Shown here one piece after another: positions 1-13,206 of a DNA stretch of 13,574 nt. The translations under genes were made by a program, and so were the position numbers. How positions within the stretch are numbered: position 1 is the stretch's first letter; each line of letters starts with the position of its first letter. The stretch is from an uncultured Eubacteriales bacterium (GTDB lineage: Bacteria > Bacillota_A > Clostridia > Oscillospirales > Oscillospiraceae), in NCBI GenBank assembly GCA_949742895.1, contig CATJRT010000154.1, positions 1 to 13,574 of the forward strand, in the 5' to 3' direction. The notes beneath the pieces were generated by a model. It saw only the letters and a list, made by a program, of their open reading frames with translations, made no database searches and was not told the DNA's origin.

Positions 1-566
1 GCCAGGGCGGTGGGCCGCACCAGGGGCTTGCCGTAGTACTCGCCGTCCTGGGGCAGCTTCACGGTGATATCCTCGATGGAGGCCTCGCCCCGCATCACCC
101 TGGCGGCGGCCATCACGGCGTCGATGATCTGCTTATAGCCGGTGCAGCGGCACACGTTGCGATACTTGGTGAACCACTCACGGGCCTCCTGGCGGGTGGG
201 GTTGGGGTTACTCATCAGCAGGGCGTAAGTAGAGACGATGAAGCCGGGCGTGCAGAAGCCGCACTGCACCGCACCGCAGTTCATCCAGGCCACCTGAATG
301 GGGTGGGGATGCTGAGGCGTGCCGATGCCCTCGATGGTGATGACGGTGCTGTACTCCTTGATGGCTTTTACCTTCCGGGTGCAGGAGCGAATCAGCTCGC
401 CGTTCAGGATGACGGAGCAGGAGCCGCACACGCCGGTGCCGCAGCCCACCTTGGTCCCCGTCAGGCCGATGCGGCGCAGGACGTCGGCCAGGGTGTCCAC
501 CTCGGGGTCGCAGGTGAAAACCCGGTCCACGCCGTTGATGTTCAGCCACATTTTTCTCAGATTCAT
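1..566 (-). CDS. Molybdenum hydroxylase (aldehyde oxidoreductase/xanthine dehydrogenase family), N-terminal [2Fe-2S] part, truncated by window edge
   Basis: The 188 visible residues hold both [2Fe-2S] domains of the family. The plant-ferredoxin-like cluster is C42-x4-C47-x2-C50-x11-C62, inside KVGCGTGVCGSCSVILNGE. The helical-domain cluster is C102-x2-C105 and C139-x-C141 (QCGFCTPG and CRCTGY). After the second cluster the protein continues into GKPLVRPTAL, which resembles the linker into the molybdopterin-binding domain. The gene may therefore encode a fused Mop-type enzyme and not a free small subunit; this is inferred, because the rest lies outside the window. Such enzymes hydroxylate purines, N-heterocycles or aldehydes with water-derived oxygen. 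The ATG at 566 has a strong AAGGAGGA site (573-580) and a consensus promoter at 647-676. It is transcribed divergently from the opine dehydrogenase operon, so the two may share control. Confidence 0.9.
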   Translation of the reverse strand, partial: MNLRKMWLNINGVDRVFTCDPEVDTLADVLRRIGLTGTKVGCGTGVCGSCSVILNGELIRSCTRKVKAIKEYSTVITIEGIGTPQHPHPIQVAWMNCGAVQCGFCTPGFIVSTYALLMSNPNPTRQEAREWFTKYRNVCRCTGYKQIIDAVMAAARVMRGEASIEDITVKLPQDGEYYGKPLVRPTAL

Positions 567-646
567 GGGGTGTCCTCCTTAAAGATTGTGATTTGATTTT
601 GTGGTATCCAGGGCATGCACATGAGGCAAACGGTTTTCTTATAGGA

Positions 647-676
647 ATTATACAGGCAAAAATATCGGTTTGTCAA
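647..676 (-). promoter_or_regulatory. Sigma-70-type promoter for the molybdenum hydroxylase gene
   Basis: On the minus strand the -35 box is TTGACA (671-676) and the -10 box is TATAAT (647-652), separated by 18 bp. Both hexamers match the consensus exactly. Transcription would start near 640, giving a 5' leader of about 74 nt before the ATG at 566. This is visible directly in the sequence; strength and regulation are not. Confidence 0.85.
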
Positions 677-723
677 AAGAAAAAGTCATTTAGGAAAAAT
701 AGTGTACAAAACCAAGAAAGCAC

Positions 724-754
724 AATAATTGCATGGATTACGGGAAAATAATTG
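724..754. repeat. Direct repeat AATAATTG, two copies 23 bp apart
   Basis: AATAATTG occurs at 724-731 and 747-754, between the two divergent promoters. The 23-bp period places the copies on roughly the same face of the helix, as expected of tandem regulator sites. In AT-rich DNA an 8-mer repeat can arise by chance, so this is only a candidate operator. Confidence 0.25.
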
Positions 755-794
755 TTTAATTTCGACAATATACACCAGAAAAAACGAATATATC

Positions 795-831
795 ATGCGA
801 GTGAGCTCCGTACCTCAGCTCATAATCGCAT
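795..831. promoter_or_regulatory. 37-bp compound dyad, candidate operator or T-tailed hairpin
   Basis: The arms are ATGCGA (795-800) and TCGCAT (826-831) outside, and TGAGCT (802-807) and AGCTCA (817-822) inside, around a 9-nt centre. One unpaired base lies on the left and three on the right between the inner and outer arms. It sits 60 bp upstream of the plus-strand -35 box. On the plus strand it is followed by the T-rich run TTATTTTTG, so it could alternatively be a terminator for an unseen short transcript. The symmetry is real; the function is inferred. Confidence 0.45.
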
Positions 832-890
832 TTATTTTTGTTTGAAACGCCTAATAGTTTTCATAAATGATAAAAATAATGAAAACTGTA

Positions 891-919
891 TTGACGCGAG
901 GACAAAACCGCTCTACAAT
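891..919 (+). promoter_or_regulatory. Sigma-70-type promoter for the opine dehydrogenase operon
   Basis: The -35 box TTGACG (891-896) and the -10 box TACAAT (914-919) are separated by exactly 17 bp, each one base from consensus. Transcription would begin near 926, leaving about 100 nt of leader before the ATG at 1027. No further promoter of comparable quality was seen inside the operon, so genes up to at least 7075 are probably read from here. Confidence 0.8.
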
Positions 920-928
920 TTGCTTGTA

Positions 929-1007
929 CCTGAAAAACAGGGAGGCAGACTGGCTGTTCCTGTTCAGGAAATCAAAACCCACCCTGAACTACACGGGCTG
1001 CTCAGGG
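929..1007 (+). promoter_or_regulatory. Operon leader with mutually exclusive helices
   Basis: The leader holds several CCTG/CAGG arms. CCTG-AAAAA-CAGG is at 929-941 and TTCCTG-TT-CAGGAA at 957-970. CCCTGA (982-987) can pair with TCAGGG (1002-1007). The segment 983-989 (CCTGAAC) is also perfectly complementary to 962-968 (GTTCAGG), so it can pair backward or forward but not both. Such an arrangement could act as an attenuation or translation switch. It also fits a DNA operator with repeated half sites. There is no clear U-tract before the ribosome binding site GGAGG at 1014-1018. It does not resemble a riboswitch class I know. Confidence 0.35.
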
Positions 1008-1026
1008 CGAAACGGAGGATTTTATT

Positions 1027-2268
1027 ATGAGCAAAATGGAGTACCTCAAAAATATGCCTATCGCTGTCCTGGGCGGCGGCGCTGTGGGCAAGACCTGTGC
1101 CGCCGACATGAAGCTGGCCGGCCGGGAGGTCCGCATTTACGATGCCATGCCTTTTGCCGCCAGTTCTCTGAAGGATCTGGATAAGACCGGGATTCTGCTG
1201 GACGGCATTCAGCGCAACAAGTATTGCTTTGAGCGTTCCGGCCGTGCTTTTTTTGATATGGTGACCACTGACATCGCCGCCGCTGTGAAAGGGACGGGGC
1301 ACATTGTCGTGGCTATGGGCTCCTGGGGCCACGAGTCTGTGTTCCGCGCCCTGATCCCCCACCTGGAAGACGGCCAGGTGGTCAATGTCTTCGCCGACAA
1401 CTTCGGCTGTCTGCTCCTCCGCCGTCTGATGCGGGAGATGGGCTGCACCAAGAAGGTCATCGTAGGCGGCTGGTCCTCCGCTCCCTACGGCACTCGGATT
1501 GAGTCCATCGGCAAGTTCCAGTTCCCCCATGTCAGCGCCAAATACCGCGCCATCACCCTGCGGGGCGCCGCCCTGCCCATGAAGGACACCGACGACTTCC
1601 TGGAGGCCTCCAAGTACCTGCCCTGTATGGACGCCGTGACCCAGGGCGAGGGCCCCTCCAAGGCCAACACCATCCTGGATGTGGACTTCGCCAATGTCAA
1701 CCCCGTCATCCACGTCCCCGCCACCGTGCTGGGCGTGTCCACCATGGAGAACTGGGGCGTTATCTTCTGCGGCAACGATAAGACCACCTACTCCATGTAC
1801 TCCCACGGCCTGTGCCCCTCCATCTGCGAGGTGCAGTATCAGTTCTACAACGAGGAGATCGCTCTTGCCAAGGCAATCGGCGTGGGCTGCCCCGAGTACA
1901 AGTATGAGATGTTCTTCTCCCGCCGCAGCGTGCTGACCCAGGAGTACATGGGCCTGGACGAGAACGGCAACGACAACGTGGTCTTCCCGCTGGACCAGCC
2001 CTCCAACGAGGGAAACACCGGCCCCAACACCATCCATCACCGCTATATGACCGAGGACGTGCCCATCGGCTGCAAGATCTACCACGACCTGGGCGTGCAG
2101 TACGGCGTGCCCACCCCCATCATCGACTCCATGATTATCCTGGCCGGCGCCATGCACAAGAAGAGCTTCTTCCAGGACAGCCGTTACACCCTGGCCTATC
2201 TGGGCATTGACGACATGTCCAAGGAGGACCTGCTGGCCTACCTGAACGACGGCGTATATAAGAAGTAA
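1027..2268 (+). CDS. Opine dehydrogenase-family protein (NAD/NADP octopine/nopaline dehydrogenase family)
   Basis: This 413-residue protein has the usual length and both domains of the family. A Rossmann dinucleotide site is near the N terminus (AVLGGGAVGK, residues 13-22). A C-terminal octopine-dehydrogenase domain carries NPVIH with H229, and R339 and D344 in RYMTEDVP. These match the His-Arg-Asp catalytic set described for scallop octopine dehydrogenase, including the five-residue step from Arg to Asp. Family members reversibly join an amino acid to a 2-oxo acid to make an opine, using NAD(P)H; the catabolic direction releases both and reduces NAD(P)+. It is first in the operon, behind a good promoter; GGAGG lies 8 nt before the ATG. 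Family assignment is firm. Opine identity and direction are unknown; nearby oxidases and a transporter suggest catabolism. Confidence 0.88.
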   Translation: MSKMEYLKNMPIAVLGGGAVGKTCAADMKLAGREVRIYDAMPFAASSLKDLDKTGILLDGIQRNKYCFERSGRAFFDMVTTDIAAAVKGTGHIVVAMGSWGHESVFRALIPHLEDGQVVNVFADNFGCLLLRRLMREMGCTKKVIVGGWSSAPYGTRIESIGKFQFPHVSAKYRAITLRGAALPMKDTDDFLEASKYLPCMDAVTQGEGPSKANTILDVDFANVNPVIHVPATVLGVSTMENWGVIFCGNDKTTYSMYSHGLCPSICEVQYQFYNEEIALAKAIGVGCPEYKYEMFFSRRSVLTQEYMGLDENGNDNVVFPLDQPSNEGNTGPNTIHHRYMTEDVPIGCKIYHDLGVQYGVPTPIIDSMIILAGAMHKKSFFQDSRYTLAYLGIDDMSKEDLLAYLNDGVYKK

Positions 2269-2275
2269 CTAAAAA

Positions 2276-2310
2276 CCAGGCCGCTCTGAGCATTCCCCAG
2301 GGCGGCCTGG
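2276..2310 (+). other. Intergenic mRNA hairpin between the first two operon genes
   Basis: A 13-bp stem (2276-2288 with 2298-2310, one G-U pair) closes a 9-nt loop, 7 nt after the stop of the opine dehydrogenase gene. It is GC-rich but is followed by AAGATAAAGAG and not a T-tract, so it is unlikely to be an intrinsic terminator. A role in mRNA 3'-end protection, processing or partial polarity between genes one and two is possible. Confidence 0.55.
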
Positions 2311-2328
2311 AAGATAAAGAGGGAGACC

Positions 2329-3660
2329 ATGAATTTTAATACCAATTACAAGCTGGAGCGCTACATTCTGGACACCAAATGGGAGGACCTTCCCGCCCAG
2401 GTCCAGGAGCGGGCCAGGGGCTGCGGCATCGACCTGATGACCGCCCTGATCCTGGGCAGCCAGGGCCGGCAGTTTGCCGCCGGCAGCAAGCTGGCTAAAC
2501 AGCTCTACTCCGGCGGAGATGTGCCTGTGGTGGGCGCCCCCGACACCTACAGCTTTATCGGCGCCACGGCGGCTATGGGCCACGGCTCCAACTCCTTCGA
2601 CATTGACGATGGCCACAACATGATCAAGGGCCACCCCGGGACCTCCTTTGTCGCCGGTATTCTGGCGGCCGGTTTGGAGAAGAATATTACATACCGTGAG
2701 TACCTGACCACCCTGGTCGTCGCCTATGATGTGGCCGTCCGCACCGGACTGGCAATCCAGGACCACTACAGCTTCCTCCACAGCACCGGCGCCTACGGCG
2801 CGGTGAGCACCGCCGCCGGGGTGGGCCGCATCTTCGGCCTGAGCAGGGAGGAGCTGAACAACGCCCTCTCCGTGGCCGACTTCCACGCCCCCCTCACCCC
2901 CGTCATGCGGGCGGTGGAGTACCCCTCCATGAACAAGGACGGGGTGCCCTTCGGCGCTCTTCTGGGGGCCATGGCCGTACTGGAGACCCAGGCCGGCACC
3001 ACCGGCAGGACCTACACCCTGGAGCTGGAGGAGTACCAGCCCCTGCTGGACACCCTGGGCAAGACCTATGAGATCATGAACCTGTACTTCAAGCCCTTCA
3101 CCTGCTGCCGCTGGGCTCACCAGCCCATCCAGGCCTGGCTGGATATGAAGCAGGCGGAGCATATCTCCGGGGCTGACATCTCCCGGGTCACCGTTCACAC
3201 CTTCAACTCCGCCTCCCGCCTGTCCAAGATCGTTCCCCACCGGGCGGACGAGGCCCAGTACAACATCGCCTGGCCGGTAGCCGCCGCGCTGGTCCACGGA
3301 GATCTGGGCTACAGGCAGGTTACGGAAGAGGCCCTGGACGACCCCGCCGTGCTGGACATGATGAAGCGGCTGGACTTTGTGGTGGACCCCGAGATGGACG
3401 CCCAGTTCCCCGAAAAGCGCCTGGCCTGGATCGAGGTGGCCCTGAAGGACGGACGGATTTTAAAGTCCCTGCCCTACGCCGCTCCCGGCGAGGCCAGCGA
3501 CCACATCAGCCTGGAGTGGCTCTCCAGGAAATTTGTGCGGATCACCTCCGCTGTCATCCCGGAACAGTCTGCCAAGGAGATCCTGGCCCTGCTGCAGGGC
3601 GCCGAGGACGCGCCTCTGCGTGACGTGGTGGGCCGGATCAACGAGATTATGAGCAAGTAA
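2329..3660 (+). CDS. MmgE/PrpD family protein
   Basis: This 443-residue protein has the length and landmarks of the MmgE/PrpD fold. It has the DIDDGHNMIKGHPGTS segment (91-106), a glycine/alanine helical core, and KPFTCCRWAHQP (255-266) with H264 in the conserved H-containing loop. Family members include 2-methylcitrate dehydratase, cis-aconitate decarboxylase and iminodisuccinate epimerase; all act on carbons next to carboxylates. Which reaction applies here cannot be read from the sequence. No other propionate-cycle gene is nearby, so methylcitrate dehydratase is unlikely. Being downstream of an opine dehydrogenase, an epimerase or lyase acting on an N-carboxyalkyl amino acid is an attractive idea, though only an inference. 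The ATG at 2329 follows a GAGGGAG site at 2319-2325, with unusually short spacing. Confidence 0.88.
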   Translation: MNFNTNYKLERYILDTKWEDLPAQVQERARGCGIDLMTALILGSQGRQFAAGSKLAKQLYSGGDVPVVGAPDTYSFIGATAAMGHGSNSFDIDDGHNMIKGHPGTSFVAGILAAGLEKNITYREYLTTLVVAYDVAVRTGLAIQDHYSFLHSTGAYGAVSTAAGVGRIFGLSREELNNALSVADFHAPLTPVMRAVEYPSMNKDGVPFGALLGAMAVLETQAGTTGRTYTLELEEYQPLLDTLGKTYEIMNLYFKPFTCCRWAHQPIQAWLDMKQAEHISGADISRVTVHTFNSASRLSKIVPHRADEAQYNIAWPVAAALVHGDLGYRQVTEEALDDPAVLDMMKRLDFVVDPEMDAQFPEKRLAWIEVALKDGRILKSLPYAAPGEASDHISLEWLSRKFVRITSAVIPEQSAKEILALLQGAEDAPLRDVVGRINEIMSK

Positions 3661-3726
3661 CGCAGCATCCCCAAGCGGGCCCAGCGAGCGAAAAAAGAGA
3701 AATCAATATTAATAGGAGGTGCCAAT

Positions 3727-4041
3727 GTGAGGATCGAAAAACATCCGGTACTCGAATATGAACACGGCAAAACTGTCCAGTTCACCTTCGAGGGGCAGAC
3801 ACTGGAGGGGTACGAGGGAGAGCCCATCGCCGCCGCCCTCCACGCCAACGGCGTGCGGGAGCTGCGGGAGCACCACGGTCGTCCCCGGGGCTTCTTCTGC
3901 GCCATCGGCAACTGCTCGTCCTGCCTGATGGAGGTAAACGGCGTGCCTAATGTGCGTGTCTGTGTGGAGCCGCTGAAAAGCGGCATGGTCGTGAAGCTCC
4001 AGAAGGGCTCCGGCTCGCTGATGGGGGGTGCTGAGACATGA
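3727..4041 (+). CDS. Small [2Fe-2S] subunit (HcnA / sarcosine-oxidase-alpha N-terminal type)
   Basis: This 104-residue protein has a plant-ferredoxin-like [2Fe-2S] pattern: C58-x4-C63-x2-C66-x12-C79, in FFCAIGNCSSCLMEVNGVPNVRVC. It resembles HcnA of hydrogen cyanide synthase and the N-terminal segment of heterotetrameric sarcosine oxidase alpha. In those enzymes it carries electrons between or away from the flavin subunits. The start is the GTG at 3727, seven bases after AGGAGG (3714-3719); the overlapping ATG at 3725 runs straight into TGA. Its stop overlaps the next ATG in the ATGA arrangement, a sign of translational coupling and of a fixed subunit ratio with the FAD subunit that follows. 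It probably belongs to the amine dehydrogenase complex. Confidence 0.85.
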   Translation: MRIEKHPVLEYEHGKTVQFTFEGQTLEGYEGEPIAAALHANGVRELREHHGRPRGFFCAIGNCSSCLMEVNGVPNVRVCVEPLKSGMVVKLQKGSGSLMGGAET

Positions 4042-5120
4042 AATTTACAGACGTAGTGGTCATCGGCGGAGGTCCCGCCGGCATGAGCGCCGCCCTGGCC
4101 GCCGCCGAGACGGGCGTGCGTGTGACCATCATGGACCGCTGGAGTGAGCTGGGCGGACAGCTCATCAAGCAGACCCATCGGTTCTTCGGCTCCGAGCGGG
4201 AGCGGGCCGGCACCCGGGGCATTGAAATCGTGGACATCCTGCGCAAGCAGATCATGGAAAATCCCCGCATTGAGGTCAAGGTGAACACCGACGTGCTGGG
4301 CATCTACTCCGACCGGGTCATCTCCTACGAGGAGGGCGACAGATACGGCCACATGACAGCCGAGAAGATCATCATCTCCACCGGCGCCGCCGAGAAGATG
4401 CTCCAGTTTGAAAACAATGACCTGCCCGGTGTCTACGGCGCCGGTGCGGTCCAGACCCTGATGAATGTCTACGGCATCCAGCCCGGCCAGAAGGTGCTGA
4501 TGATCGGCGCGGGCAACATCGGCCTGATTGTCACCTATCAGCTGCTTCAGGCGGGGGTGAACGTGGTGGCTATCGTGGAGGCCGCTCCCCGGATCGGCGG
4601 CTACAAGGTCCACGCCTCCAAGGTCCGCCGTATGGGAGTGCCCATCTACACCAAGACCACTGTGAAGGCCGCCCTGGGCGACACCCACGTCACCGGCGCG
4701 GTGCTGTGCGACATGGACGACAGGTTCCAGCTGGTGCCCGGCACCGAGCGGGAGGTCGAAGTGGACACTATCTGCCTGTCTGTGGGCCTGGCTCCCCTGA
4801 GCGAGCTGATCTCCCACACTGGTGCCAAAATGCACTACATCCCCCAGCTGGGCGGCTTCGTCCCCGAGCGGAACGAGAACCTGGAGACCACCGCCCCCGG
4901 CGTGTATGTGGCGGGCGACGTGTCCTGCATCGAGGAGGCCACCGCCGCTATGATTGAGGGCAGCATCGCCGGACTGTCGGCGGCCATCGCCACCGGCATG
5001 AACCGCCCCGATGTGCTGAAGAAGCGTGACGAATGGATCGAGCAGCTGAACATCCTGCGCTCCGGCAAGACCGGGCAGAAAATCCGGGATGGACTGGCTC
5101 TGATGGCAAAGGAGGGTTGA
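4038..5120 (+). CDS. FAD/NAD(P)-binding oxidoreductase subunit, alpha type (HcnB / opine oxidase A / proline dehydrogenase alpha-like)
   Basis: This 360-residue protein has a pyridine-nucleotide-disulfide-oxidoreductase fold. The FAD site GGGPAG is at 10-15, followed by GGQLIKQTHRFFGS. A second dinucleotide motif, GAGNIG, is at 157-162, and the C-terminal FAD signature VYVAGDVSC is at 289-297. Relatives are HcnB, octopine/nopaline oxidase subunit A and the alpha subunit of archaeal dye-linked L-proline dehydrogenase. They accept or pass electrons from the amine-oxidising beta subunit, and some act as NADH dehydrogenases. It lacks the C-terminal BFD domain fused in many bacterial relatives; here that module is the separate gene at 5628. 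There is no redox-active CxxC, which argues against a thioredoxin reductase. Confidence 0.87.
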   Translation: MKFTDVVVIGGGPAGMSAALAAAETGVRVTIMDRWSELGGQLIKQTHRFFGSERERAGTRGIEIVDILRKQIMENPRIEVKVNTDVLGIYSDRVISYEEGDRYGHMTAEKIIISTGAAEKMLQFENNDLPGVYGAGAVQTLMNVYGIQPGQKVLMIGAGNIGLIVTYQLLQAGVNVVAIVEAAPRIGGYKVHASKVRRMGVPIYTKTTVKAALGDTHVTGAVLCDMDDRFQLVPGTEREVEVDTICLSVGLAPLSELISHTGAKMHYIPQLGGFVPERNENLETTAPGVYVAGDVSCIEEATAAMIEGSIAGLSAAIATGMNRPDVLKKRDEWIEQLNILRSGKTGQKIRDGLALMAKEG

Positions 5121-5122
5121 AC

Positions 5123-5611
5123 GTGAGTGGAACATTAGACAGTACCGGCATCGCCAGCCGTGAGATGTTTGAAAAGCTCCTCCCCTCCGCCCAGCGGCGG
5201 GCCAAGGGCCCCTATGTGGTCATGGAGTGCTATGAGGAGATCCCCTGCAACCCCTGCTCCACCAGCTGCGCCTTCCACGCCGTGAAGATGGAGGCGCTGA
5301 ACAAGTGCCCCGGAGTGGACTACGACGCCTGCCCCGGCTGCGGCAGCTGCGTCAGCCGCTGCCCCGGCCTGGCCTGCTTTGTTATCAACGAGACGGTGGG
5401 AGACGGCAAGATCGACATCACCATCCCCTATGAGATGCTCCCTGTGCCCCAGAAGGGCGACATAGTAGACGCCCTGGGCCGGGACGGCTTTGTGGTGGGC
5501 AAGGCGGAAATCGTCCGCGTCCTCAGCGGTCCCAAGATGGACCACACCAATGTGATTACCATGCGCGTGGACGCCTCCCTGCTCTATGACGCGCGCAGCA
5601 TCCGCGTTTGA
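5123..5611 (+). CDS. [4Fe-4S] ferredoxin-like electron-transfer subunit (PdhF-like)
   Basis: This 162-residue protein has ten cysteines between residues 36 and 85. They include C42-x2-C45-x3-C49, C62, and C70-x2-C73-x2-C76-x3-C80-P, so two [4Fe-4S] clusters are likely. The second half (about 90-162) has no cysteines and forms a beta-rich tail that I do not recognise. The start is the GTG at 5123, six bases after GGAGGG (5111-5116), only two bases after the stop of the alpha subunit. Its size and place between alpha and BFD-like subunits match the small ferredoxin-like subunit of archaeal L-proline dehydrogenase complexes (from memory, order pdhA-F-X-B). The probable role is to carry electrons between the flavins and a ferredoxin or NAD acceptor. 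Confidence 0.8.
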   Translation: MSGTLDSTGIASREMFEKLLPSAQRRAKGPYVVMECYEEIPCNPCSTSCAFHAVKMEALNKCPGVDYDACPGCGSCVSRCPGLACFVINETVGDGKIDITIPYEMLPVPQKGDIVDALGRDGFVVGKAEIVRVLSGPKMDHTNVITMRVDASLLYDARSIRV

Positions 5612-5627
5612 AAGGAGGGGGAACATC

Positions 5628-5915
5628 ATGATGGACGAGAGCAAGATCATCCTGTGCCGCTGTGAAAACCTGACTCTGGCCGACCTGCACAAGATGCTGG
5701 ATGAGGGCATGACCTCCATGCAGGAGATCAAGAAGAAATCCCGCTGCACCATGGGCCCCTGTCAGGGCCGCACCTGCAAGGAAATGATCGCCCGGGAGAT
5801 CGCCAGCTACCTGGGCAAAACGGTGGACGAGGTGGACGTGCCCGTCAGCCGTATCCCCATCAAGCCCATCACCCTGGGACAGGTTCATCAGTTGAACGGA
5901 GGTGACGACGCATGA
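5628..5915 (+). CDS. BFD-like [2Fe-2S]-binding protein (PdhX-like)
   Basis: This 95-residue protein has the bacterioferritin-associated ferredoxin-type [2Fe-2S] pattern. C10-x-C12 is in ILCRCENLT, and C40-x4-C45 is in CTMGPCQGRTC, with an extra C50. In many opine oxidase and HcnB proteins the same module is the C-terminal domain of the alpha subunit; here it stands alone. The ATG at 5628 follows AAGGAGGGG (5612-5620) with seven bases between; a second in-frame ATG at 5631 is the only alternative. Its TGA overlaps the next ATG (ATGA), so it is coupled to the beta subunit. Expected role: electron shuttle between the two flavoproteins of the complex. Confidence 0.87.
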   Translation: MMDESKIILCRCENLTLADLHKMLDEGMTSMQEIKKKSRCTMGPCQGRTCKEMIAREIASYLGKTVDEVDVPVSRIPIKPITLGQVHQLNGGDDA

Positions 5916-7075
5916 GGAAAACCGCAGACGTAGTGGTCATCGGCGGCGGCAACGCCGGTACCTCCACAGCCTACCACCTGACCAAGCTGGGCGTAAAGAA
6001 CGTCGTGGTAGTGGAGCAGCAGTACACCCCCTTCGGCGGCTCCGGCCGGTGCGCGGCCATGTTCCGCCAGCAATTCGCCACCCTCTCCAACCTTCACGTG
6101 GCCAAGCTGTCCACCGACGAGTATGACCACCTGGGCGAGGAGACCGGCTTCGGCGACCTGGAGATCAGCAAGGGCGGCTACCTCCTTCCCGCCCACACTC
6201 AGGAGGATCTGGACCACTGCGCGGCCAATGTGAAGGTGCAGCGAGAATTTGGCTTTGACTCTCATCTTCTGGACCCCAAGGGCTGTAAAGAGGTCTCTCC
6301 CTATTTGGATGTGGAGGGCCAAGGCATTCTGGGCGGTTCCTACAACACCGGCGAGGGTGTCATCAATCCCATGAAGCTGGCCCTGGCCTATAAGAAGGGC
6401 GCCATGGATCGGGGCGCGGAGTTCAACAACTACACCAAGGTCATCGGCTTCAATATCGAGAGCGGCAAAATCAAGGGTGTTATCACCGACAAGGGCGAGA
6501 TTGCCACTAACCGTGTGGTCAACGCCGCAGGCGAGTGGGGCAAATTTATCGGCCGTATGGCCGGCGTCTCCATCCCCCTGGAGCCTGAAAAGCACCAGAT
6601 CGTCGTCACCGAGCCGCTGGAATACATCAAGGCGCCGATGATCTATTCTCTGTATAAGTATTACACCTACATCGTCCAGGTGAAGCACGGCGGATTCCTG
6701 ATGGGTTGGTCTGACCCCGATGTGGAGGCCGGCGTCATCGATTTTACGCCGGAATGGAAATTCCTTGAAGAGCTCGCCAAGCGGGTGATCCCCCAGGTCC
6801 CCGCCCTGGCCAATGTGCGCATCATCCGCCACTGGGCCGGCCAGTATGGCAATCTGCCCGATCACGGCATTCTGGTGGGCGGCGTCCCCGAGGTAGAGGG
6901 CTTCTTCCTGGGTCTGGGCGCTACAAAGGCCACCATGTTCGCCGGCGGCCTGGGGACCCTGGCCGCCGAGGCCGCCATCGGAGCTAAGCTCAGCGTGCCG
7001 GAGGAAATGGTCCCCACCTATATGATCGACCGCTTTGCCAAGGGCAACCTGGTCATTGATCCGGCCCTGCTGTAA
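5912..7075 (+). CDS. DAO-fold FAD-dependent amine oxidoreductase, beta/catalytic subunit (opine oxidase B / HcnC / proline dehydrogenase beta-like)
   Basis: This 387-residue protein is a D-amino-acid-oxidase-type flavoprotein. It has GGGNAGTSTAYHL with the FAD GxGxxG at 11-16, E35 for ribose binding and GGSGRCAAMFRQQF (42-55) after it. Near the end, YGNLPDHGILVGGVPEVEGFFLGLGA places it with glycine/sarcosine/proline/opine oxidising enzymes. In sarcosine oxidase beta, HcnC, OoxB and proline dehydrogenase beta this subunit oxidises a C-N bond of an amino or imino acid to an imine. The substrate cannot be told from sequence; candidates are opines, L- or D-proline, hydroxyproline and N-methyl amino acids. 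It lies last in the set of five redox genes, with GGAGGTGA at 5898-5905 and an ATGA overlap with the BFD gene. In an anaerobe the electrons should go through Fe-S subunits, not to O2. Confidence 0.87.
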   Translation: MRKTADVVVIGGGNAGTSTAYHLTKLGVKNVVVVEQQYTPFGGSGRCAAMFRQQFATLSNLHVAKLSTDEYDHLGEETGFGDLEISKGGYLLPAHTQEDLDHCAANVKVQREFGFDSHLLDPKGCKEVSPYLDVEGQGILGGSYNTGEGVINPMKLALAYKKGAMDRGAEFNNYTKVIGFNIESGKIKGVITDKGEIATNRVVNAAGEWGKFIGRMAGVSIPLEPEKHQIVVTEPLEYIKAPMIYSLYKYYTYIVQVKHGGFLMGWSDPDVEAGVIDFTPEWKFLEELAKRVIPQVPALANVRIIRHWAGQYGNLPDHGILVGGVPEVEGFFLGLGATKATMFAGGLGTLAAEAAIGAKLSVPEEMVPTYMIDRFAKGNLVIDPALL

Positions 7076-7136
7076 ACAGGTGGAGCGCCCCCCGGAACGG
7101 CGCGCAGATAGACGGAAGGCATACTTATTTTGCAAT

Positions 7137-7183
7137 AATCCAGGCATCTGAATGGCATGATTGTTTTCGATGCCTGGATTTTT
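7137..7183 (+). terminator. Intrinsic terminator or attenuator between the beta subunit gene and the BCCT gene
   Basis: A perfect 12-bp stem (AATCCAGGCATC at 7137-7148, GATGCCTGGATT at 7169-7180) with a 20-nt loop is followed by TTT, giving a five-T run at 7179-7183. The long loop makes it weaker than a classic terminator, so partial read-through into the transporter is likely. A smaller GC hairpin (GCGCC/GGCGC, 7085-7103) lies just upstream. The hairpin also shows that the in-frame ATG at 7157, inside its loop, is unlikely to be the real start of the transporter. Confidence 0.65.
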
Positions 7184-7207
7184 GTTATCAAAGAAAGAGA
7201 GGTAATT

Positions 7208-8815
7208 GTGAACAAAAAGATTGAAATTGAGAAGGGCATTTTTATTCCAACCGCCATAATTCTGCTGGGCGTTATTCTGTTCGGTTTTGTTTTTAACGAC
7301 TTCTTCAACACCACGATGACCTTCCTGTTCAACGCGGTAACCGACTGGACCGGCTGGTTTATGATGATTGGCTCCGTGGTGATGGTTGTCGCGTGTCTGA
7401 TCGTCTGCTTCACCCCTCTCGCAAGCAAGCGGGTGGGCGGCCCGAGCGCGAAAGTGGAGTACAGTAACTTCGCCTGGATCAGCATGGCTATCTGCTCCGG
7501 CATCGCCACCGCGGTGGTGTTTTACGCGGTGGGTGAGCCTATCACCTACTTCCACAATCCCCCTGTGTGGTGGAATATTGACCCGGAAACTCCGGAGGCC
7601 GTGGTCCGCGCCATCTCTCAGTCGCAGTTCCACTGGGGCTTTATTTATTACGGCATCTTCACCTTCTGGGGCCTGATTGCCGGCTATATGATCTATAACC
7701 ACAACCTGCCGCCCCGCCCCTCTTCCGCCTTTTATCCCCTCTTGAAGGATAAGGTTTTTGGCCCCATCGGGAAAGTGATTGACGTTCTGTCTCTGCTTGC
7801 CCTGATTGGCGGCATGGTCACCTCCCTGGGCTTCGGCGTACAGCAGTTTGCCTCTGGCCTGGATTATGTGTTTGGCATCAAGCCCTCCAATCTGATCTAC
7901 ATAGCCACCCTGCTTCTGGTCACCATCTCCTACACCGTCTCCTCTGGCCGGGGAGTAAAAAAGGGTATGGCCATCATCTCCAGCACCAACACCTACATCT
8001 ATATTTTCCTGATCGCGTTCCTGTTCCTGCTTGGCGACACTGTGTTCGAGCTGAAGCTCCTCACCGCCAGCATCGGCCAGCAGATCATCGACTTTATCCC
8101 CAATGTGTTCTCTCTTGACCCCACCAACGAGGGACAAGGCTGGTTCCAGGGATGGACGGTGTTCTATATGGCCTGGATCACCGCATACGCCCCGCTGATC
8201 GGCTGCTTCCTGGCCAAGATTTCCAAGGGCCGCTCCTGGCGCTCCTATCTGCTGGTCAACATCTTCTGCCCTGCCGCGTTTGTGACTGTGTGGTTTGTGG
8301 CCTTTGGCGGCAACGCCATTTTCCAGGACCTGTTCAACGGGGCCAGCATAGGCGCCGAGGTGGCGGAGAAGGGGATTCCCATCGCCAACTACGCGCTGCT
8401 CAACCTGATGCCGCTGAAGGGGCTTACCATTCCCATTGTTGTGGCAGCTCTGTTCTTCTCGTTCATCACCCTGGCCGACGCTATGACCGGAACCATCGCC
8501 GCGATTACCGTCAAGCGTATTACCGAGGACGAGGCTCCTGTGCGCATCAAGTTTTTCTGGGGCATCCTGTGCGGCGTTACCACCTTCCTGTGCCTGTTCT
8601 GCCTGGGCTCCACCGGGACGACCTCTCTGCAAAATATGTCCATTGTATACGCCCTGCCCATTTATATTCTGACATTCATTTCCCTTCCCTGCCTGTGGCG
8701 AATGTGTGACGGCACGGTGGACCGGGAAATAAAAGCCCTTACCCCGCAGCAGCGGGAGTCCTTAGCCAATGGCGCCCCCATCGGACCGATGCCGCAGGAG
8801 GAGAGCACAGAATAA
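7208..8815 (+). CDS. BCCT-family transporter (betaine/carnitine/choline family), divergent
   Basis: This 535-residue membrane protein has about twelve hydrophobic segments and the BCCT hallmark in TM8 (GWTVFYMAWITAYAPLIG, 315-332), with KISKGRS after it. The FHWG box is in TM4 (141-144). BCCT carriers import or exchange glycine betaine, carnitine, choline or related zwitterions. Several aromatic-box positions differ from BetP-type members: TM8 reads MAWITAY instead of WAWWISW, and TM4 reads HWGFIYYGIF with no second tryptophan. The glycine-rich TM3 stretch is ICSGIATAVVF. The substrate may therefore lack a trimethylammonium group. The GTG at 7208 is chosen because AGAGAGG precedes it and the earlier ATG at 7157 sits inside a hairpin loop. 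Its position suggests it feeds the amine dehydrogenase. No long C-terminal osmosensor tail is present. Confidence 0.88.
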   Translation: MNKKIEIEKGIFIPTAIILLGVILFGFVFNDFFNTTMTFLFNAVTDWTGWFMMIGSVVMVVACLIVCFTPLASKRVGGPSAKVEYSNFAWISMAICSGIATAVVFYAVGEPITYFHNPPVWWNIDPETPEAVVRAISQSQFHWGFIYYGIFTFWGLIAGYMIYNHNLPPRPSSAFYPLLKDKVFGPIGKVIDVLSLLALIGGMVTSLGFGVQQFASGLDYVFGIKPSNLIYIATLLLVTISYTVSSGRGVKKGMAIISSTNTYIYIFLIAFLFLLGDTVFELKLLTASIGQQIIDFIPNVFSLDPTNEGQGWFQGWTVFYMAWITAYAPLIGCFLAKISKGRSWRSYLLVNIFCPAAFVTVWFVAFGGNAIFQDLFNGASIGAEVAEKGIPIANYALLNLMPLKGLTIPIVVAALFFSFITLADAMTGTIAAITVKRITEDEAPVRIKFFWGILCGVTTFLCLFCLGSTGTTSLQNMSIVYALPIYILTFISLPCLWRMCDGTVDREIKALTPQQRESLANGAPIGPMPQEESTE

Positions 8816-8846
8816 TTTATAGACAGCTGTTGCGGCAGATGAAGCA

Positions 8847-8879
8847 AAAAAACAACCGGCCGCCGGCCGGTTGTTTTTT
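8847..8879 (+). terminator. Strong intrinsic terminator after the BCCT gene
   Basis: A 15-bp perfect stem (8847-8861 with 8865-8879), GC-rich at the top (CCGGCC/GGCCGG) with a 3-nt loop, ends in six T residues. The A-run on the left arm makes it potentially active on the minus strand too. It lies 31 bp after the transporter stop and marks the end of that transcription unit. Confidence 0.88.
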
Positions 8880-8907
8880 GCTGAACAGAAATTGAGGAGG
8901 GACTTAC

Positions 8908-9402
8908 ATGCCAAATTGTAAAACCGTGGTGCCTTACCGCGGGACACAGGAGCAGGAGGACCGGCTTCGCCGCTTCCTCCAGGACCACAAGGGCCAGCCG
9001 GGGGCGGTCATGCCCGTCCTTCAGGAAATCCAGAGCATCTTCGGATACCTGCCCGAGGAGGCCCTGATTATCGCTGCGGAGGAGATGGACATCTCCCTCT
9101 CCGAGCTCTACAGCGTGGGCTCTTTCTATGCGCAGTTCTCCTTCAACCCCAAGGGCGTGCATCAGGTGTCCGTATGCCTGGGCACCGCCTGCTATGTCAA
9201 GGGGGCGGCGGAGGTACTGGAGGCGGCGGAGAAAAAGCTGGGGATCTGCAACGGCAGCATCACCCTGGACGGCCGTTTCTCCCTGGACGCCACGCGGTGC
9301 ATCGGCGCCTGCGGGCTGGCCCCGGTGATGATGGTGGACAGCGACGTCTATGGGCGGCTTACTCCAGACCAGGTCGGGCCCATTTTGGACAAATACATGT
9401 GA
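8908..9402 (+). CDS. hydC: Electron-bifurcating [FeFe] hydrogenase, small [2Fe-2S] subunit (HydC/HymA, NuoE-like)
   Basis: This 164-residue protein is a thioredoxin-like [2Fe-2S] ferredoxin of the NuoE type. C90-x4-C95 is in CLGTACYVKGA and C131-x3-C135 in CIGACGLAPVM, the family's ligand spacing, after an N-terminal helical part. In trimeric hydrogenases HydC docks on HydB and carries electrons near the NAD(H) and flavin site. The ATG at 8908 follows GAGGAGGG (8894-8901). The gene starts just after a strong terminator, and no good promoter is visible between them, so its transcription start is unclear. The next gene begins 20 bp later, and the order C-B-A is the usual one for hydABC (hymABC). 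Confidence 0.92.
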   Translation: MPNCKTVVPYRGTQEQEDRLRRFLQDHKGQPGAVMPVLQEIQSIFGYLPEEALIIAAEEMDISLSELYSVGSFYAQFSFNPKGVHQVSVCLGTACYVKGAAEVLEAAEKKLGICNGSITLDGRFSLDATRCIGACGLAPVMMVDSDVYGRLTPDQVGPILDKYM

Positions 9403-9421
9403 GGAGCGGGAGGGAAACACA

Positions 9422-11302
9422 TTGAAAACTTTGGAGCAACTGGATCAGATCCGAGCTCAGATCAGCGCCGAGATGGCCCCCCGCTTTGCGGAGGAGCGGG
9501 CCGAGGGCGTGACGCGGCACATTATGGTATGCGCCGGCACGGGCTGCACCTCCTCCAAGAGTCTGGACATCATCGCCGGGTTCCAGGCAGAGCTGGAAAA
9601 ACAGGCAGTGGCGGACCGGAACCGGGTGGTGCGCACAGGCTGCTTCGGGCTGTGCGCCATGGGGCCTGTGGTCCTGATCTACCCAGAGGGAATCTTCTAC
9701 AGCCATGTGACGCCGGGGGATGTGCCGGAGATTGTTTCAGAGCACATTGTAAACGGGCGGCTTGTGGAGCGTCTGCTCCACCGGGAGGCCGACACCGGCG
9801 AAATCACTCGCCGCCTGGACGACATGGAGTTTTACCAGCCCCAGCTGCGCATTGCCCTGCGCAACTGCGGAAAAATCGACCCTGAAAACATCAATGAGTA
9901 TCTGGCGGTGGACGGCTATCAGGCTCTCACCCGCATTCTCACCGAGAAAACCCCGGCCCAGGAGATCATTGACACACTGAAGAGCTCCGGTCTGCGGGGC
10001 CGAGGGGGCGCGGGCTTCCCGGCGGGACAGAAGTGGCAGTTTACCGCCAACGCCTCCAGCGAAGACGGGGTGAAATTCGTCTGCTGCAACGCCGACGAGG
10101 GCGACCCCGGCGCCTTTATGGACCGCTCCATCCTGGAGGGCGACCCCCACAGCGTCATCGAGGCCATGATTATCGCCGGCTACACCGTCGGCTCCGACCA
10201 GGGCTACATCTACGTGCGGGCGGAGTATCCCATTGCGGTGCACCGCCTGGAGACGGCCATCGCTCAGGCCGAGGAATATGGTCTGCTGGGTGAGAACATC
10301 CTGAACAGCGGATTTACCTTCCGCCTGGCGCTGCGCCTAGGCGCGGGGGCCTTCGTGTGCGGCGAGGAGACCGCTCTGATGACCTCCATCGAGGGCCGCC
10401 GGGGCGAGCCCCATCCCCGTCCCCCCTTCCCGGCGGTCAAGGGTCTGTTCCAGAGGCCCACCCTGCTCAACAACGTGGAGACTTACGCCAACGTCACCTG
10501 GATTCTCAACCACGGGGCCCAGGCCTACGCCGCCATCGGCACGGAAAAATCCAAGGGCACCAAGGTCTTGGCCCTGGGGGGAAAGATTGCCAACACCGGC
10601 CTGGTGGAGGTCCCCATGGGCACCACGCTGCGCACCATCGTGGAGGAGATCGGCGGCGGCATCCCCAACGGCAAGCGGTTCAAGGCCGCCCAGACCGGCG
10701 GCCCCTCTGGCGGCTGCATCCCCGCCTCCCTCATCGACACCCCCACCGACTACGATTCCCTGGCCGCCATCGGCTCCATGATGGGCTCCGGCGGGCTGAT
10801 TGTTATGGATGAGGACAACTGCATGGTGGACATCGCCAAGTTCTTCCTGGAGTTCTGTGTGGACGAGTCCTGCGGCAAATGCGCCCCCTGCCGGATTGGC
10901 ACCAAGCGGCTCTACGATCTGCTGGACAAGATCACTAGGGGTGAGGGCACCCTGGAGGACCTAGACACCATTGAGGAGCTGTGCAACCACCTGAAGAGCA
11001 GCGCCCTGTGCGCCCTAGGCCAGACCGCGCCCAACCCGGTGCTGTCCACGCTGAAGCACTTCCGGGAGGAGTATGTGGCGCATGTGGTGGAGAAGCGCTG
11101 CCCGGCCGGCGTCTGCAAGAATCTGCTGCGCTACACCGTGGACCCGGAAAAGTGCAAGGGCTGTACGCTGTGTACCCGCTCCTGTCCCACCGGGGCCATC
11201 TCGGGCATCCTGCGGGCGCCCCATACCATTGACAACAGGAAATGCGTCAAGTGCGGCGCCTGTATGGACGCCTGCCGCTTCGGCGCGATCTCCAAGGGCT
11301 GA
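9422..11302 (+). CDS. hydB: Electron-bifurcating [FeFe] hydrogenase, NADH/FMN subunit (HydB/HymB, NuoF-like)
   Basis: The 626-residue product has the full HydB domain order. An N-terminal thioredoxin-like [2Fe-2S] domain has C37, C42, C74 and C78. The NADH-binding GRGGAGFPAGQKW is at 193-205 and the FMN-binding CCNADEGDPGAF at 221-232. A NuoF-type [4Fe-4S] site is at C484, C487, C490 and C530. The C-terminal ferredoxin domain has two clusters (C578-x2-C581-x2-C584-x3-C588 and C608-x2-C611-x2-C614-x3-C618). HydB exchanges electrons with NAD(H), and its flavin is the likely bifurcation site. I chose the TTG at 9422 because GGGAGGG lies at 9408-9414 with 7-nt spacing and because upstream codons overlap hydC. 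Nothing essential is missing. Confidence 0.93.
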   Translation: MKTLEQLDQIRAQISAEMAPRFAEERAEGVTRHIMVCAGTGCTSSKSLDIIAGFQAELEKQAVADRNRVVRTGCFGLCAMGPVVLIYPEGIFYSHVTPGDVPEIVSEHIVNGRLVERLLHREADTGEITRRLDDMEFYQPQLRIALRNCGKIDPENINEYLAVDGYQALTRILTEKTPAQEIIDTLKSSGLRGRGGAGFPAGQKWQFTANASSEDGVKFVCCNADEGDPGAFMDRSILEGDPHSVIEAMIIAGYTVGSDQGYIYVRAEYPIAVHRLETAIAQAEEYGLLGENILNSGFTFRLALRLGAGAFVCGEETALMTSIEGRRGEPHPRPPFPAVKGLFQRPTLLNNVETYANVTWILNHGAQAYAAIGTEKSKGTKVLALGGKIANTGLVEVPMGTTLRTIVEEIGGGIPNGKRFKAAQTGGPSGGCIPASLIDTPTDYDSLAAIGSMMGSGGLIVMDEDNCMVDIAKFFLEFCVDESCGKCAPCRIGTKRLYDLLDKITRGEGTLEDLDTIEELCNHLKSSALCALGQTAPNPVLSTLKHFREEYVAHVVEKRCPAGVCKNLLRYTVDPEKCKGCTLCTRSCPTGAISGILRAPHTIDNRKCVKCGACMDACRFGAISKG

Positions 11303-11316
11303 AGGGGGAGGAGACT

Positions 11317-13077
11317 ATGGCTTTGAATGCTGTAAAACAGGTAAATCTGAAAATCAACGGGCTGGACGTATGCGTGCCCGAAGGGACCACGATCCTGGAG
11401 GCCGCCCGTTCGGTGGGTATCCGCATCCCTACCCTGTGCATTTTAAAAAATATTAACGAGATCGGCGCCTGCCGCATCTGCGTGGTAGAAGTGGAGGGAG
11501 CCCGCAGCCTGGTGGCCTCCTGCGTCTACCCGGTGAGCGAGGGGATGGTGGTGCGCACCAACACCGAAAAGGTGCGCCACTCCCGCCAGCTGACTCTGGA
11601 GCTCATCATGTCCAACCACCGTATGGACTGCCTGACCTGCGCCCGCAACTCCCACTGCGAGCTGCTTGCCCTGGCCAATGAGCTGAGGATCGACGCGGTT
11701 CGCTACGCCAACAACCAGCTCCCTCCCCAGATCGAGGACTCCGCCCTCCATCTGGTCCGGGACAACTCCAAGTGCATCCTGTGCCGGCGGTGCACCGCCA
11801 CCTGTCATAAGGTGCAGCAGGTGGCCGTCATCAGCCCCAACGAACGTGGCTTCAAGACCCACATCGCCTGCGCCTACGACCGGGACCTGGGCGAGGTGGA
11901 CTGCGTCTCCTGCGGACAGTGCGTGGTGGCCTGTCCCACCGGCGCGCTCACCGTCCGGGACGACACGGAAAAGGTCTGGGCCGCCCTGGACGACCCGGCC
12001 AAGCATGTGGTGGTGGCCCCCGCTCCCGCCGTGCGCGTCACCCTTGGCGAGTGCCTGGGAATGCCCATCGGCACCAACGTGGAGGGCAAGCTGGCCACTG
12101 CCCTGCGCCGCCTGGGCTTTGACCGGGTGTTCGATGTGGACACAGCGGCTGACTTTACCATTGTGGAGGAGGGCACCGAGTTCCTGGACCGGCTGCAAAA
12201 CGGCGGCGTTCTGCCTATGATTACCTCCTGCTCCCCCGGCTGGATACGCTACTGTGAGCTGCATCAGCCCGATTTGATCCCCAACCTGTCCTCCTGCAAG
12301 TCTCCACAGCAGATGTTTGGCTCCCTGGTCAAGACCTACTACGCCGAGAAGGAGGGAATCGACCCCAGGGATATCGTCGTGGTGTCTGTCATGCCCTGCA
12401 CCGCCAAAAAATACGAGGTCCAGCGGGAGGAGATGCGCCTTGCCAACGGCTGCCTGCCGGTGGATATCTCCATCACCACCCGGGAGCTCAGCAGCATGAT
12501 TAAGCGGGCGGGTCTGCTCTTCGACCACCTGCCAGACGGGGAATTTGACGAGGCCCTGGGCGTGTCCACCGGCGCCGCCGCCATATTCGGCGCCACCGGC
12601 GGAGTGATGGAGGCTGCGCTGCGCACCGTCGCGGTAAAGCTGGCCGGCGTTGGGATGCAGGTGGATTTCCACGAGGTGCGCGGACTGGAGGGGATCAAGG
12701 AGGCGGGTTACTGCCTGCCCGGCCGCACGGTCCGCGTGGCGGTTGCCTCCGGACTGTCCAACGCAAAGAAGCTTCTGGACCGGGTGAAGAAGGGGGAGGC
12801 CCACTACGACTTCATCGAGATCATGGGCTGTCCCGGCGGTTGCATCAACGGCGGCGGCCAGCCCACGCAGCCCGCCGATGTCCGCAGCTTTACCGACCTG
12901 GTCAAGCTGCGCTCCGAAGCGCTCTATAGCCAGGATGTCAGGACCCAGCTGCGCCGCAGCCATGAGAACCCGGTGCTCCAGCAGATCTATCAGGAGTACC
13001 TGGGCGAGCCCGGCGGACACAGGGCCCACGAGATCCTTCATACGCACTATGCCCCCATGAGGAAGTACCGCACCTGA
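11317..13077 (+). CDS. hydA: [FeFe] hydrogenase catalytic subunit (HydA/HymC)
   Basis: The 586-residue catalytic subunit makes or oxidises H2. Its clusters in order are a [2Fe-2S] site (C41, C52, C55, C69), a His-ligated [4Fe-4S] site (H101, C105, C108, C114) and two ferredoxin clusters (C153/156/159/163 and C196/199/202/206). The H-cluster motifs follow: TSCSPGW (L1, 303-309), MPCTAKKYE (L2, 359-367) and EIMGCPGGCINGGGQP (L3, 501-516, with C505 and C509). The C terminus (AHEILHTHYAP) is the fused small-subunit tail. L1 has serine at 306, where the best-studied clostridial enzyme has the proton-transfer cysteine. The ATG at 11317 follows GGGGGAGGAG, 14 bp after hydB. With HydB and HydC it would couple NADH plus reduced ferredoxin to H2 formation. 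Confidence 0.94.
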   Translation: MALNAVKQVNLKINGLDVCVPEGTTILEAARSVGIRIPTLCILKNINEIGACRICVVEVEGARSLVASCVYPVSEGMVVRTNTEKVRHSRQLTLELIMSNHRMDCLTCARNSHCELLALANELRIDAVRYANNQLPPQIEDSALHLVRDNSKCILCRRCTATCHKVQQVAVISPNERGFKTHIACAYDRDLGEVDCVSCGQCVVACPTGALTVRDDTEKVWAALDDPAKHVVVAPAPAVRVTLGECLGMPIGTNVEGKLATALRRLGFDRVFDVDTAADFTIVEEGTEFLDRLQNGGVLPMITSCSPGWIRYCELHQPDLIPNLSSCKSPQQMFGSLVKTYYAEKEGIDPRDIVVVSVMPCTAKKYEVQREEMRLANGCLPVDISITTRELSSMIKRAGLLFDHLPDGEFDEALGVSTGAAAIFGATGGVMEAALRTVAVKLAGVGMQVDFHEVRGLEGIKEAGYCLPGRTVRVAVASGLSNAKKLLDRVKKGEAHYDFIEIMGCPGGCINGGGQPTQPADVRSFTDLVKLRSEALYSQDVRTQLRRSHENPVLQQIYQEYLGEPGGHRAHEILHTHYAPMRKYRT

Positions 13078-13081
13078 CTGC

Positions 13082-13125: not shown

Positions 13126-13206
13126 CATCCTGTAAATGAACATCCGAAAGCACGTTTTTAGGAGAATCGTTAGCATACTGTGAGCGTCGGCCGTTTGGAT
13201 TTATCA

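Follow-up and report, generated by a model that had tools for sequence, protein, structure and literature searches.

The 13,574-nt stretch analyzed here (the window; contig CATJRT010000154.1 of assembly GCA_949742895.1, from an uncultured Eubacteriales bacterium of the Oscillospiraceae) carries, between positions 1027 and 8815, eight genes that are all called as open reading frames on the + strand and that we considered as a candidate unit for amine breakdown in a gut-type anaerobe. They code for an opine dehydrogenase family protein, an MmgE/PrpD family protein, a set of five flavin/Fe-S proteins and a BCCT-family importer, as follows:

1027..2268, + strand: NAD(P)-dependent opine dehydrogenase family protein (ODH); PF02317 Octopine_DH, 1.5e-31
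2329..3660, + strand: MmgE/PrpD family protein (PrpD), proposed epimerase; PF03972 MmgE_PrpD_N, 1.6e-34, and PF19305 MmgE_PrpD_C, 1.4e-28
3727..4041, + strand: 2Fe-2S subunit, gamma-type (Fer2); PF13510 Fer2_4, 6.1e-28
4038..5120, + strand: FAD/NAD(P) flavoprotein, alpha-type, HcnB/NoxA-like; PF07992 Pyr_redox_2, 8.3e-35
5117..5611 (TTG start at 5117 or GTG start at 5123), + strand: 4Fe-4S protein; weak RLI/PorD/RnfB ferredoxin-domain matches
5628..5915, + strand: BFD-like 2Fe-2S protein; PF17806 SO_alpha_A3, 2.8e-9, and PF04324 Fer2_BFD, 2.2e-7
5912..7075, + strand: DAO-family FAD catalytic subunit, beta-type (DAO); PF01266 DAO, 8.7e-62
7157..8815, + strand: BCCT-family importer with an altered aromatic box; PF02028 BCCT, 1.1e-124

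Open reading frames and Pfam matches confirmed this gene content, which a first-pass annotation had proposed; Pfam gave no match for the 4Fe-4S gene product. A codon model also found all eight genes and, being partly trained on five of them, lends independent support only to the three small ones. The same annotation had described the starts within the flavin set as coupled, an account that fits three of its four junctions (overlaps of 4 bases at 4038 and at 5912, and an overlap or a 2-base gap at 5117-5123) but not the fourth, where 16 bases separate the genes. The BCCT gene, described as divergent, is not divergently transcribed; it diverges in sequence only, reaching 347.4 bits against the NCBIfam betaine model (cut-off 650). 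No RNA family matched the window at gathering score. In the nearest genome compared (G001) a contig matches window positions 289-13095 at 99% identity, and homologues of all eight genes are present, in a different order, at a further locus, L030. The gene set is therefore not a product of chance, nor is the combination confined to one strain.

The Octopine_DH domain of ODH scores 109.8 bits, above the gathering score (cut-off 30), and the best relatives among PDB sequences are N-(1-D-carboxylethyl)-L-norvaline dehydrogenase of Arthrobacter (CENDH; 8.2e-18) and then octopine dehydrogenase. Residues N225, H229, R339 and D344 align with N198, H202, R292 and D297 of CENDH (1bg6), the catalytic residues of that enzyme, and the four are invariant in 63/63 alignment rows (the window twice plus 61 other loci, two of which, L021 and L198, are one genome). 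In agreement, the AF2 model (pLDDT 85.6) has 1bg6 as its top PDB fold match, with octopine dehydrogenases next. Alignment and model together predict that ODH has the residues and the fold of an opine dehydrogenase. Ketopantoate reductase was considered and rejected, because CENDH and octopine dehydrogenase rank ahead of the PanE structures, which start at rank 5 and are mixed there with pseudopaline and staphylopine dehydrogenases.

For the MmgE/PrpD protein, the best PDB sequences are B. subtilis IRG1 and iminodisuccinate (IDS) epimerase. For the latter, H99 and Y145 have been suggested as bases (PMC7347537), and both are kept in the window protein, as H102 and Y147. Among 38 aligned rows (33 distinct genes, five being included twice), D94, H102, K203, K255 and C260 are found in all and Y147 in 30; the eight exceptions are the eight plasmid homologues of the set, from alphaproteobacteria and haloarchaea. 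The top TM-score, 0.83, is to IDS epimerase 2hp0, at 21% identity in the fold alignment, and IRG1, IDS epimerase and MmgE match the fold with similar E-values that do not separate them. Since the remaining active-site residues differ from those of bsIRG1 and IDS epimerase (Lys100 replaces R100 of bsIRG1, and alignment around K200 is poor), the protein was not filed as an IDS epimerase, although it likely works like one. Against the NCBIfam equivalogs for 2-methylcitrate dehydratase it stays far under the cut-offs (27.7 vs 575 and 20.6 vs 458 bits).

Plasmid homologues of PrpD were inspected at 10 hand-picked rather than random places, two of them near-identical Paracoccus, out of 40 listed among 571 records. 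Betaine ABC importers lie alongside in six of the 10, three of these with the flavoprotein pair, and Rieske-type proteins were seen in five of the 10. On the alphaproteobacterial plasmids L162, L169 and L170, PrpD is annotated together with a flavoprotein pair, a betaine ABC importer, a C-N hydrolase and a Rieske-type oxygenase; this is an aerobic betaine-type cluster using the same two families as the window.

The five flavin/Fe-S genes were compared with known multi-subunit amine dehydrogenases. The Fer2 gene product carries by eye the pattern C-x4-C-x2-C-x12-C, which fits the gamma-subunit 2Fe-2S motif C-x4-C-x2-C-x11-12-C given in PMC4575208. The alpha-type flavoprotein matches soxA with 160.5 bits and shows two GxGxxG motifs by eye. 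A candidate for the second 2Fe-2S motif (C-x-C-x15-20-C-x4-C), located in the alpha subunit elsewhere, lies here on the separate BFD-like protein, which matches SO_alpha_A3; by eye its gap counts 27 residues. The DAO subunit has its ADP-binding motif, GGGNAG, at residues 11-16 and an R-x-W signature (R306/W308) present in 11 of 12 rows, L168 being the exception, and its best PDB match (2.3e-63) is 1y56_B, an entry named 'sarcosine oxidase' that we take to be the beta subunit of P. horikoshii L-proline dehydrogenase. The five genes form a conserved cassette that belongs with archaeal proline dehydrogenase and flavin opine dehydrogenase.

A DAO homologue at E≤1e-60 is present in 19 of 391 genomes of the class, at 22 places, 20 of which were fetched (G365 and G260, at contig ends, were left out). 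The order Fer2-HcnB-4Fe4S-BFD-DAO is kept in all 20 cassettes, the G001 copy of the window included. In the other 19, DAO is 33-42% identical to that of the window, and ODH, PrpD and BCCT are absent from all 19 fetched loci. The called genes of the 20 loci were clustered and one representative per family was annotated: a family represented by an AFOR occurs at 14 loci, a polyferredoxin and a ThiS-like protein at 11 each, and an SNF importer at 5, while NuoE-like and NuoF-like genes are each present at 4, counting HydC and HydB of the window copy. Because of these neighbours, the generic task of the cassette looks like the oxidation of an amine to something that an aldehyde oxidoreductase can take. 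G001 has a second flavin cassette (L101; DAO 34% identical), next to which are genes for a DcuC/YfcC-type carrier and for an amidohydrolase; the latter has Xaa-Pro dipeptidase as its top NCBIfam match, below cut-off, which hints at a proline-like substrate for that copy.

The window-type DAO is a narrower group: at E≤1e-100, 48 of 49 protein clusters have at least 57% identity, the remaining one having 44%. Among the 391 class genomes and the 300 family genomes G001 is its sole carrier; among 394 genomes of the order, G977 carries it as well. Cassettes of this type were found at six loci: the window (G001), L030, L108 (G977), L128, L129 and L130. A BCCT gene adjoins the cassette in five of them, L128 having a sodium:solute symporter instead, and an ODH-family gene is close by in four (the window, L030, L128 and L129). 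At L128, where the stretch runs into this gene at the contig end, and at L129, the ODH-family gene directly after DAO is a 63% relative, that is, a second ODH-family gene. L108 has the cassette and BCCT with no ODH nearby, and at L130 a contig edge ends the stretch, ODH and PrpD being on another contig. Related arrangements accompany DAO in the 42-45% range: the order at L027 is BCCT, cassette, small gene, AFOR, small gene, ODH, PrpD, and that at L131 (Acidaminobacter) is cassette, Fer4, AFOR, small gene, BCCT, so that AFOR follows the cassette in both. At L026/L131, ODH-PrpD is about 9 kb from the cassette, with TRAP genes between, and the distance is at most 4 kb in L027, L030, L128 and L129. 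Of the cultured relatives, Acidaminobacter hydrogenoformans DSM 2784 (L026/L131) thus combines all four elements (ODH, PrpD, cassette and BCCT), while Flintibacter muris DSM 110149 (L002) represents ODH-PrpD alone and Agathobaculum NTUH-O15-33 the cassette-BCCT unit. L026, L027 and L030 were found through ODH and have it by construction, and L128-L131 come from genomes chosen for ODH.

In alignment with BetP, whose aromatic box consists of W189, W194, Y197 and W374, the corresponding residues of the window BCCT are Trp, Tyr, Phe and Ile, so that three of the four positions differ. Ile at the W374 position (Ile341 in the window) is shared by 6/6 BCCTs of the window type (the window, L108, L030, L130, L131 and L129); the BCCT of L027 has Trp there. 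Eight further rows came from loci with a glycyl radical enzyme (GRE) or MttB: seven combine Asp at W373 with Trp at W374, and L208 has Trp at both. Both groups have Tyr at the W194 position, which leaves the Ile as the one residue specific to the window type. These residues hint that the cargo is not a trimethylammonium compound.

The ODH neighbourhood was surveyed at 52 loci, some of whose fetched stretches end at contig edges. LysR genes are found at 35 (29 falling into one LysR cluster), PrpD at 20, TRAP at 8, GltS at 6, and MetQ, an Asp/Glu-racemase-like gene and BCCT at 4 each; a GRE activase occurs at 4, cassette genes at 3, a GRE at 2 and MttB at none. The 10 class-sample loci besides G001 have MttB in 5, BCCT in 4, the racemase-like gene in 5 and PrpD in 1. 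In the pooled 62 loci (one genome, that of L021 and L198, counted twice), BCCT is present in 8 and MttB in 5, and PrpD (21/62) and the racemase-like gene (9/62) never share a locus (overlap 0, p=0.017), a statistic confounded by descent.

In all four genomes of family f58, PanB, ODH, BCCT, the racemase-like gene, MttB and corrinoid genes lie in one stretch, with UroD in three of the four; MttB also accompanies ODH in G156. A PanB (ketopantoate hydroxymethyltransferase) gene adjoins ODH in four MttB/BCCT clusters, L196, L197, L205 and L206. In G977 an ODH of 50% identity stands beside a GRE (80% identical to that of L028), a GRE activase, a TIM-barrel protein and BCCT, and L038 holds a CutC-like GRE, ODH and BCCT together. 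CutC-like GREs lie near ODH in L028, L038 and L204, with 8iof as the closest PDB entry and scores below the CutC/HypD cut-offs where scanned. A GRE and/or its activase is found near ODH in L028, L038, L040, L042 and L204, in some cases with BCCT, a Mo aldehyde oxidoreductase or a TIM-barrel protein. HypD (hydroxyproline) and CutC were both tried as names for the GRE and dropped (588 vs 1100 and 718 vs 1050 bits, NCBIfam).

Co-occurrence was then counted across genomes. DAO at 70% identity or more is present in 4 of 50 genomes of ODH loci, compared, for DAO at E≤1e-100, with 0 of 390 other class genomes (p=1.5e-4) and 1 of 393 order genomes (p=6.7e-4). Among the 391 class genomes ODH occurs in 11 and DAO in 19, both together in six (p=2.3e-6). 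Leaving out G001 (390 genomes), DAO is in 18, ODH in 10 and both in 5, against an expected 0.46 (p=2.6e-5), and by genus, without g1, 11 have DAO, 8 have ODH and 4 of 222 share them (p=2.1e-4). ODH and PrpD co-occur without G001 in two genomes (p=0.008). All seven genomes with ODH of at least 73% and DAO of at least 42% identity also have PrpD of at least 61%, six of the seven having been reached through ODH. As a control, neither ODH at E≤1e-20 nor PrpD above 30% is present in the four family genomes whose cassettes are of 34-39%.

The eight genes are flanked by the following features:

3..566, - strand: Mo-dependent aldehyde oxidoreductase (MOP), N-terminal Fe-S part; NCBIfam NF045668, 282.5 bits, residues 5-188
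8850..8880, no strand assigned: likely bidirectional terminator (hairpin bearing T tracts on both strands)
8908..13077, + strand: HydC, HydB and HydA, NADH-dependent [FeFe] hydrogenase of group A6

The MOP gene is the divergently transcribed neighbour; it is truncated by the left window edge, and its score, from a partial gene, is under the whole-protein cut-off. It is a possible member of the cluster, with relatives near ODH in L038 and L040. Upstream of it, a sigma-70 consensus is matched at 12/12 positions at 676-647 on the - strand. Contig C143 of G001 starts in the region of window 289-582 and contig C81 opens with a 94% copy, so that G001 may have more than one copy of this gene.

On the other side, the hairpin at 8850-8880 is the probable right end of the unit: positions 8812-8910 fold with a z of -4.07, and none of 200 shuffles folds equally well, although the number of terminator-like sites in the window (9, with a shuffle mean of 9.6) is not in itself above chance. 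HydA scores 860.7 bits against NCBIfam NF040763 (cut-off 765). The hydrogenase was rejected as a member of the unit on account of this strong hairpin and of the lack of any match to the Hyd genes in the relatives' stretches L030, L108 and L128-L131; HydCBA is probably a separate unit and a possible electron sink. Two further hairpins were noted, one at 2276-2310 between ODH and PrpD (thirteen pairs, GC-rich, z -4.66), which lacks a T tract and may serve in processing or stability, and one at 13082-13126 after HydA (about twenty pairs, z -8.76), perhaps a terminator.

The comparative evidence points to a unit by which an N-substituted amino acid (an opine or a betaine-derived compound) would be imported and degraded without oxygen, a proposal that we regard as an evenly balanced call. 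Import and oxidation of such a compound by an anaerobe had been the suggestion of the first-pass annotation, and it stands as the best reading of this evidence, partly supported. The families, catalytic residues, neighbourhoods and co-occurrence described above are compatible with a scheme of which we infer the substrate class, the order of steps and the electron acceptor. The BCCT importer would take up a zwitterionic N-substituted amino acid, from which PrpD would remove and return the alpha-proton to give the right stereoisomer, and ODH with NAD+ would oxidize the N-CH(COO-) bond, yielding an alpha-keto acid and an amine. The five-subunit complex would oxidize a secondary or N-alkyl amine, in the same molecule or in the freed part, to an imine that would hydrolyze to an aldehyde or keto acid, with FAD, FMN and Fe-S centres relaying the electrons to either ferredoxin or NAD+; any aldehyde could then be oxidized by an aldehyde oxidoreductase (MOP in the window, AFOR in relatives).

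Several observations weigh against a single unit. The ODH and flavin-cassette modules can be separated, for each also occurs without the other: cassette genes are missing from the fetched stretch in 49 of the 52 ODH loci, and G977 has cassette and BCCT with neither ODH nor PrpD nearby, an ODH of 50% elsewhere and no PrpD at E≤1e-20. Without G001, DAO and PrpD co-occur in one genome, which is not significant (p=0.25). In the five ODH/DAO pairs outside G001 the genes are on separate contigs and the cassettes, with DAO of 39-41%, are without BCCT, for which reason a shared amino-acid-fermenting lifestyle could be the cause of the co-occurrence. On plasmids, no annotated ODH lies at any of the 10 PrpD places, and neither PrpD nor a flavoprotein pair lies at the two inspected places that carry an annotated ODH. 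The window might accordingly hold two independent modules, adjacent by chance or through a loose link of lifestyle: a LysR-type ODH-PrpD module for an acidic substrate, in line with the TRAP, GltS and MetQ neighbours of ODH, and a cassette-BCCT module for another amine, as in G977, the 19 other cassette loci and the control genomes pointing the same way. We hold this to be rather unlikely, because the adjacency recurs in several lineages with varied gene order, an ODH-family gene directly follows DAO in L128 and L129, and PrpD accompanies ODH and DAO in 7/7 genomes of sufficient identity.

Partly overlapping with the single-unit proposal, the substrate could be a methylated, betaine-derived amino acid (for instance an N-methyl or N,N-dimethyl amino acid, or else proline betaine or the compound formed by its demethylation), ODH being an N-alkyl amino acid dehydrogenase acting on no classical opine. 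The BCCT importers near ODH, the MttB and corrinoid genes of f58 and G156, the GRE clusters of L038 and G977 and the betaine importers and Rieske-type proteins beside plasmid PrpD would all fit; the altered box of the window BCCT, with Ile for W374, the low identity (54-57%) of the MttB-linked ODH copies, whose substrate may differ, and the GltS and TRAP partners, better suited to acidic substrates, make it possible but somewhat doubtful. Many opine dehydrogenases run in the synthetic direction in animals and in staphylopine-type systems, and 6c4r and 6pbm are among the ODH fold matches; a synthetic ODH, which would condense a keto acid with an amino acid and so get rid of NADH or produce an osmolyte or metallophore, is nevertheless very improbable here, since the transporters beside ODH are mostly of importer families (BCCT, TRAP, GltS, MetNIQ; the EamA protein of L196 is an exception), an oxidizing cassette adjoins it, and no metallophore-type gene is among the annotated genes of the window, to which the search for one was confined. 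A housekeeping role for PrpD apart from amine breakdown, as 2-methylcitrate dehydratase or as cis-aconitate decarboxylase, is suggested by the family name and by fold matches that do not discriminate, and is improbable in view of its equivalog scores, of the Tyr that mammalian IRG1 lacks and of its presence with ODH in 20/52 loci.

Beyond the single-unit proposal for the window, the surveys allow a tentative generalization, which we hold to be somewhat doubtful. In anaerobes, this ODH lineage may act on imported N-substituted amino acids as a common NAD-dependent step, serving at least three oxygen-free systems that break C-N bonds or demethylate (the five-subunit flavin complex, the CutC-like GRE and MttB/corrinoid). 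A stereo-inverting partner would often accompany it, either PrpD or a protein of the unrelated Asp/Glu-racemase-like fold (never both in the loci examined), and the BCCT subtypes would differ in their binding site according to the C-N enzyme. A testable rule also follows from the comparison: the binding-site residues of the importer would vary with the enzyme that breaks the C-N bond. What is known of opine catabolism comes mainly from aerobic bacteria of soil and plants; should this cluster be used by gut anaerobes, the gut would hold a source of opines or of N-alkyl amino acids, namely diet, glycation products or plant osmolytes, and these compounds would have a route of breakdown that needs no oxygen.

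Among known systems, IDS epimerase (2hp0/2hp3) shares with the window PrpD the MmgE/PrpD fold and the two proposed bases, and acts on an opine-like secondary amine dicarboxylate; it is paired with a C-N lyase in its own system, unlike the window protein, whose partner is a dehydrogenase. The archaeal dye-linked L-proline dehydrogenase (1y56) has a multi-subunit flavin/Fe-S make-up as in the window, with subunits fused differently. BCCT and a related ODH gene also occur in the MttB/BCCT clusters for quaternary amine demethylation, as they do here; profiles from the search of ODH loci gave no match to MttB, corrinoid or UroD genes in the window, and a word search of the two E. limosum MttB papers returned no 'opine'.

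The statement that no characterized pathway has this combination has to be softened, near precedents being described in two studies, on P. putida (PMC4575208) and on pTiEU6 (PMC6733357). The flavin opine dehydrogenase OdhABC of P. putida has a homologue of NAD-opine dehydrogenase (PP_4452) in its flanking region, and the type-2 beta subunit described there is close to archaeal L-proline dehydrogenase; the type-2 enzyme is reported not to use L-proline (PMC4575208). OdhABC and the Ti-plasmid enzymes NoxABC/OoxABC share with the window the alpha (FAD), beta (DAO) and gamma (2Fe-2S) subunits, the gamma Cys motif, the beta R-x-W and nearby importer genes (PMC4575208); the window differs in its separate 4Fe-4S and BFD subunits, in BCCT replacing ABC import, in its anaerobe lineage and in the PrpD and Mo aldehyde oxidoreductase genes nearby. 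The opine region of Ti plasmid pTiEU6, of succinamopine type, contains NAD-ODH, flavin dehydrogenase genes, LysR genes and mmgE, the last linked by its authors to propionate metabolism (PMC6733357). That system, compared here by gene content, belongs to an aerobe with ABC import (PMC6733357), unlike the window; by analogy, an mmgE of the pTiEU6 kind might be an opine epimerase instead. The cluster is a rare, conserved combination of two modules, for whose kind aerobic precedents exist.

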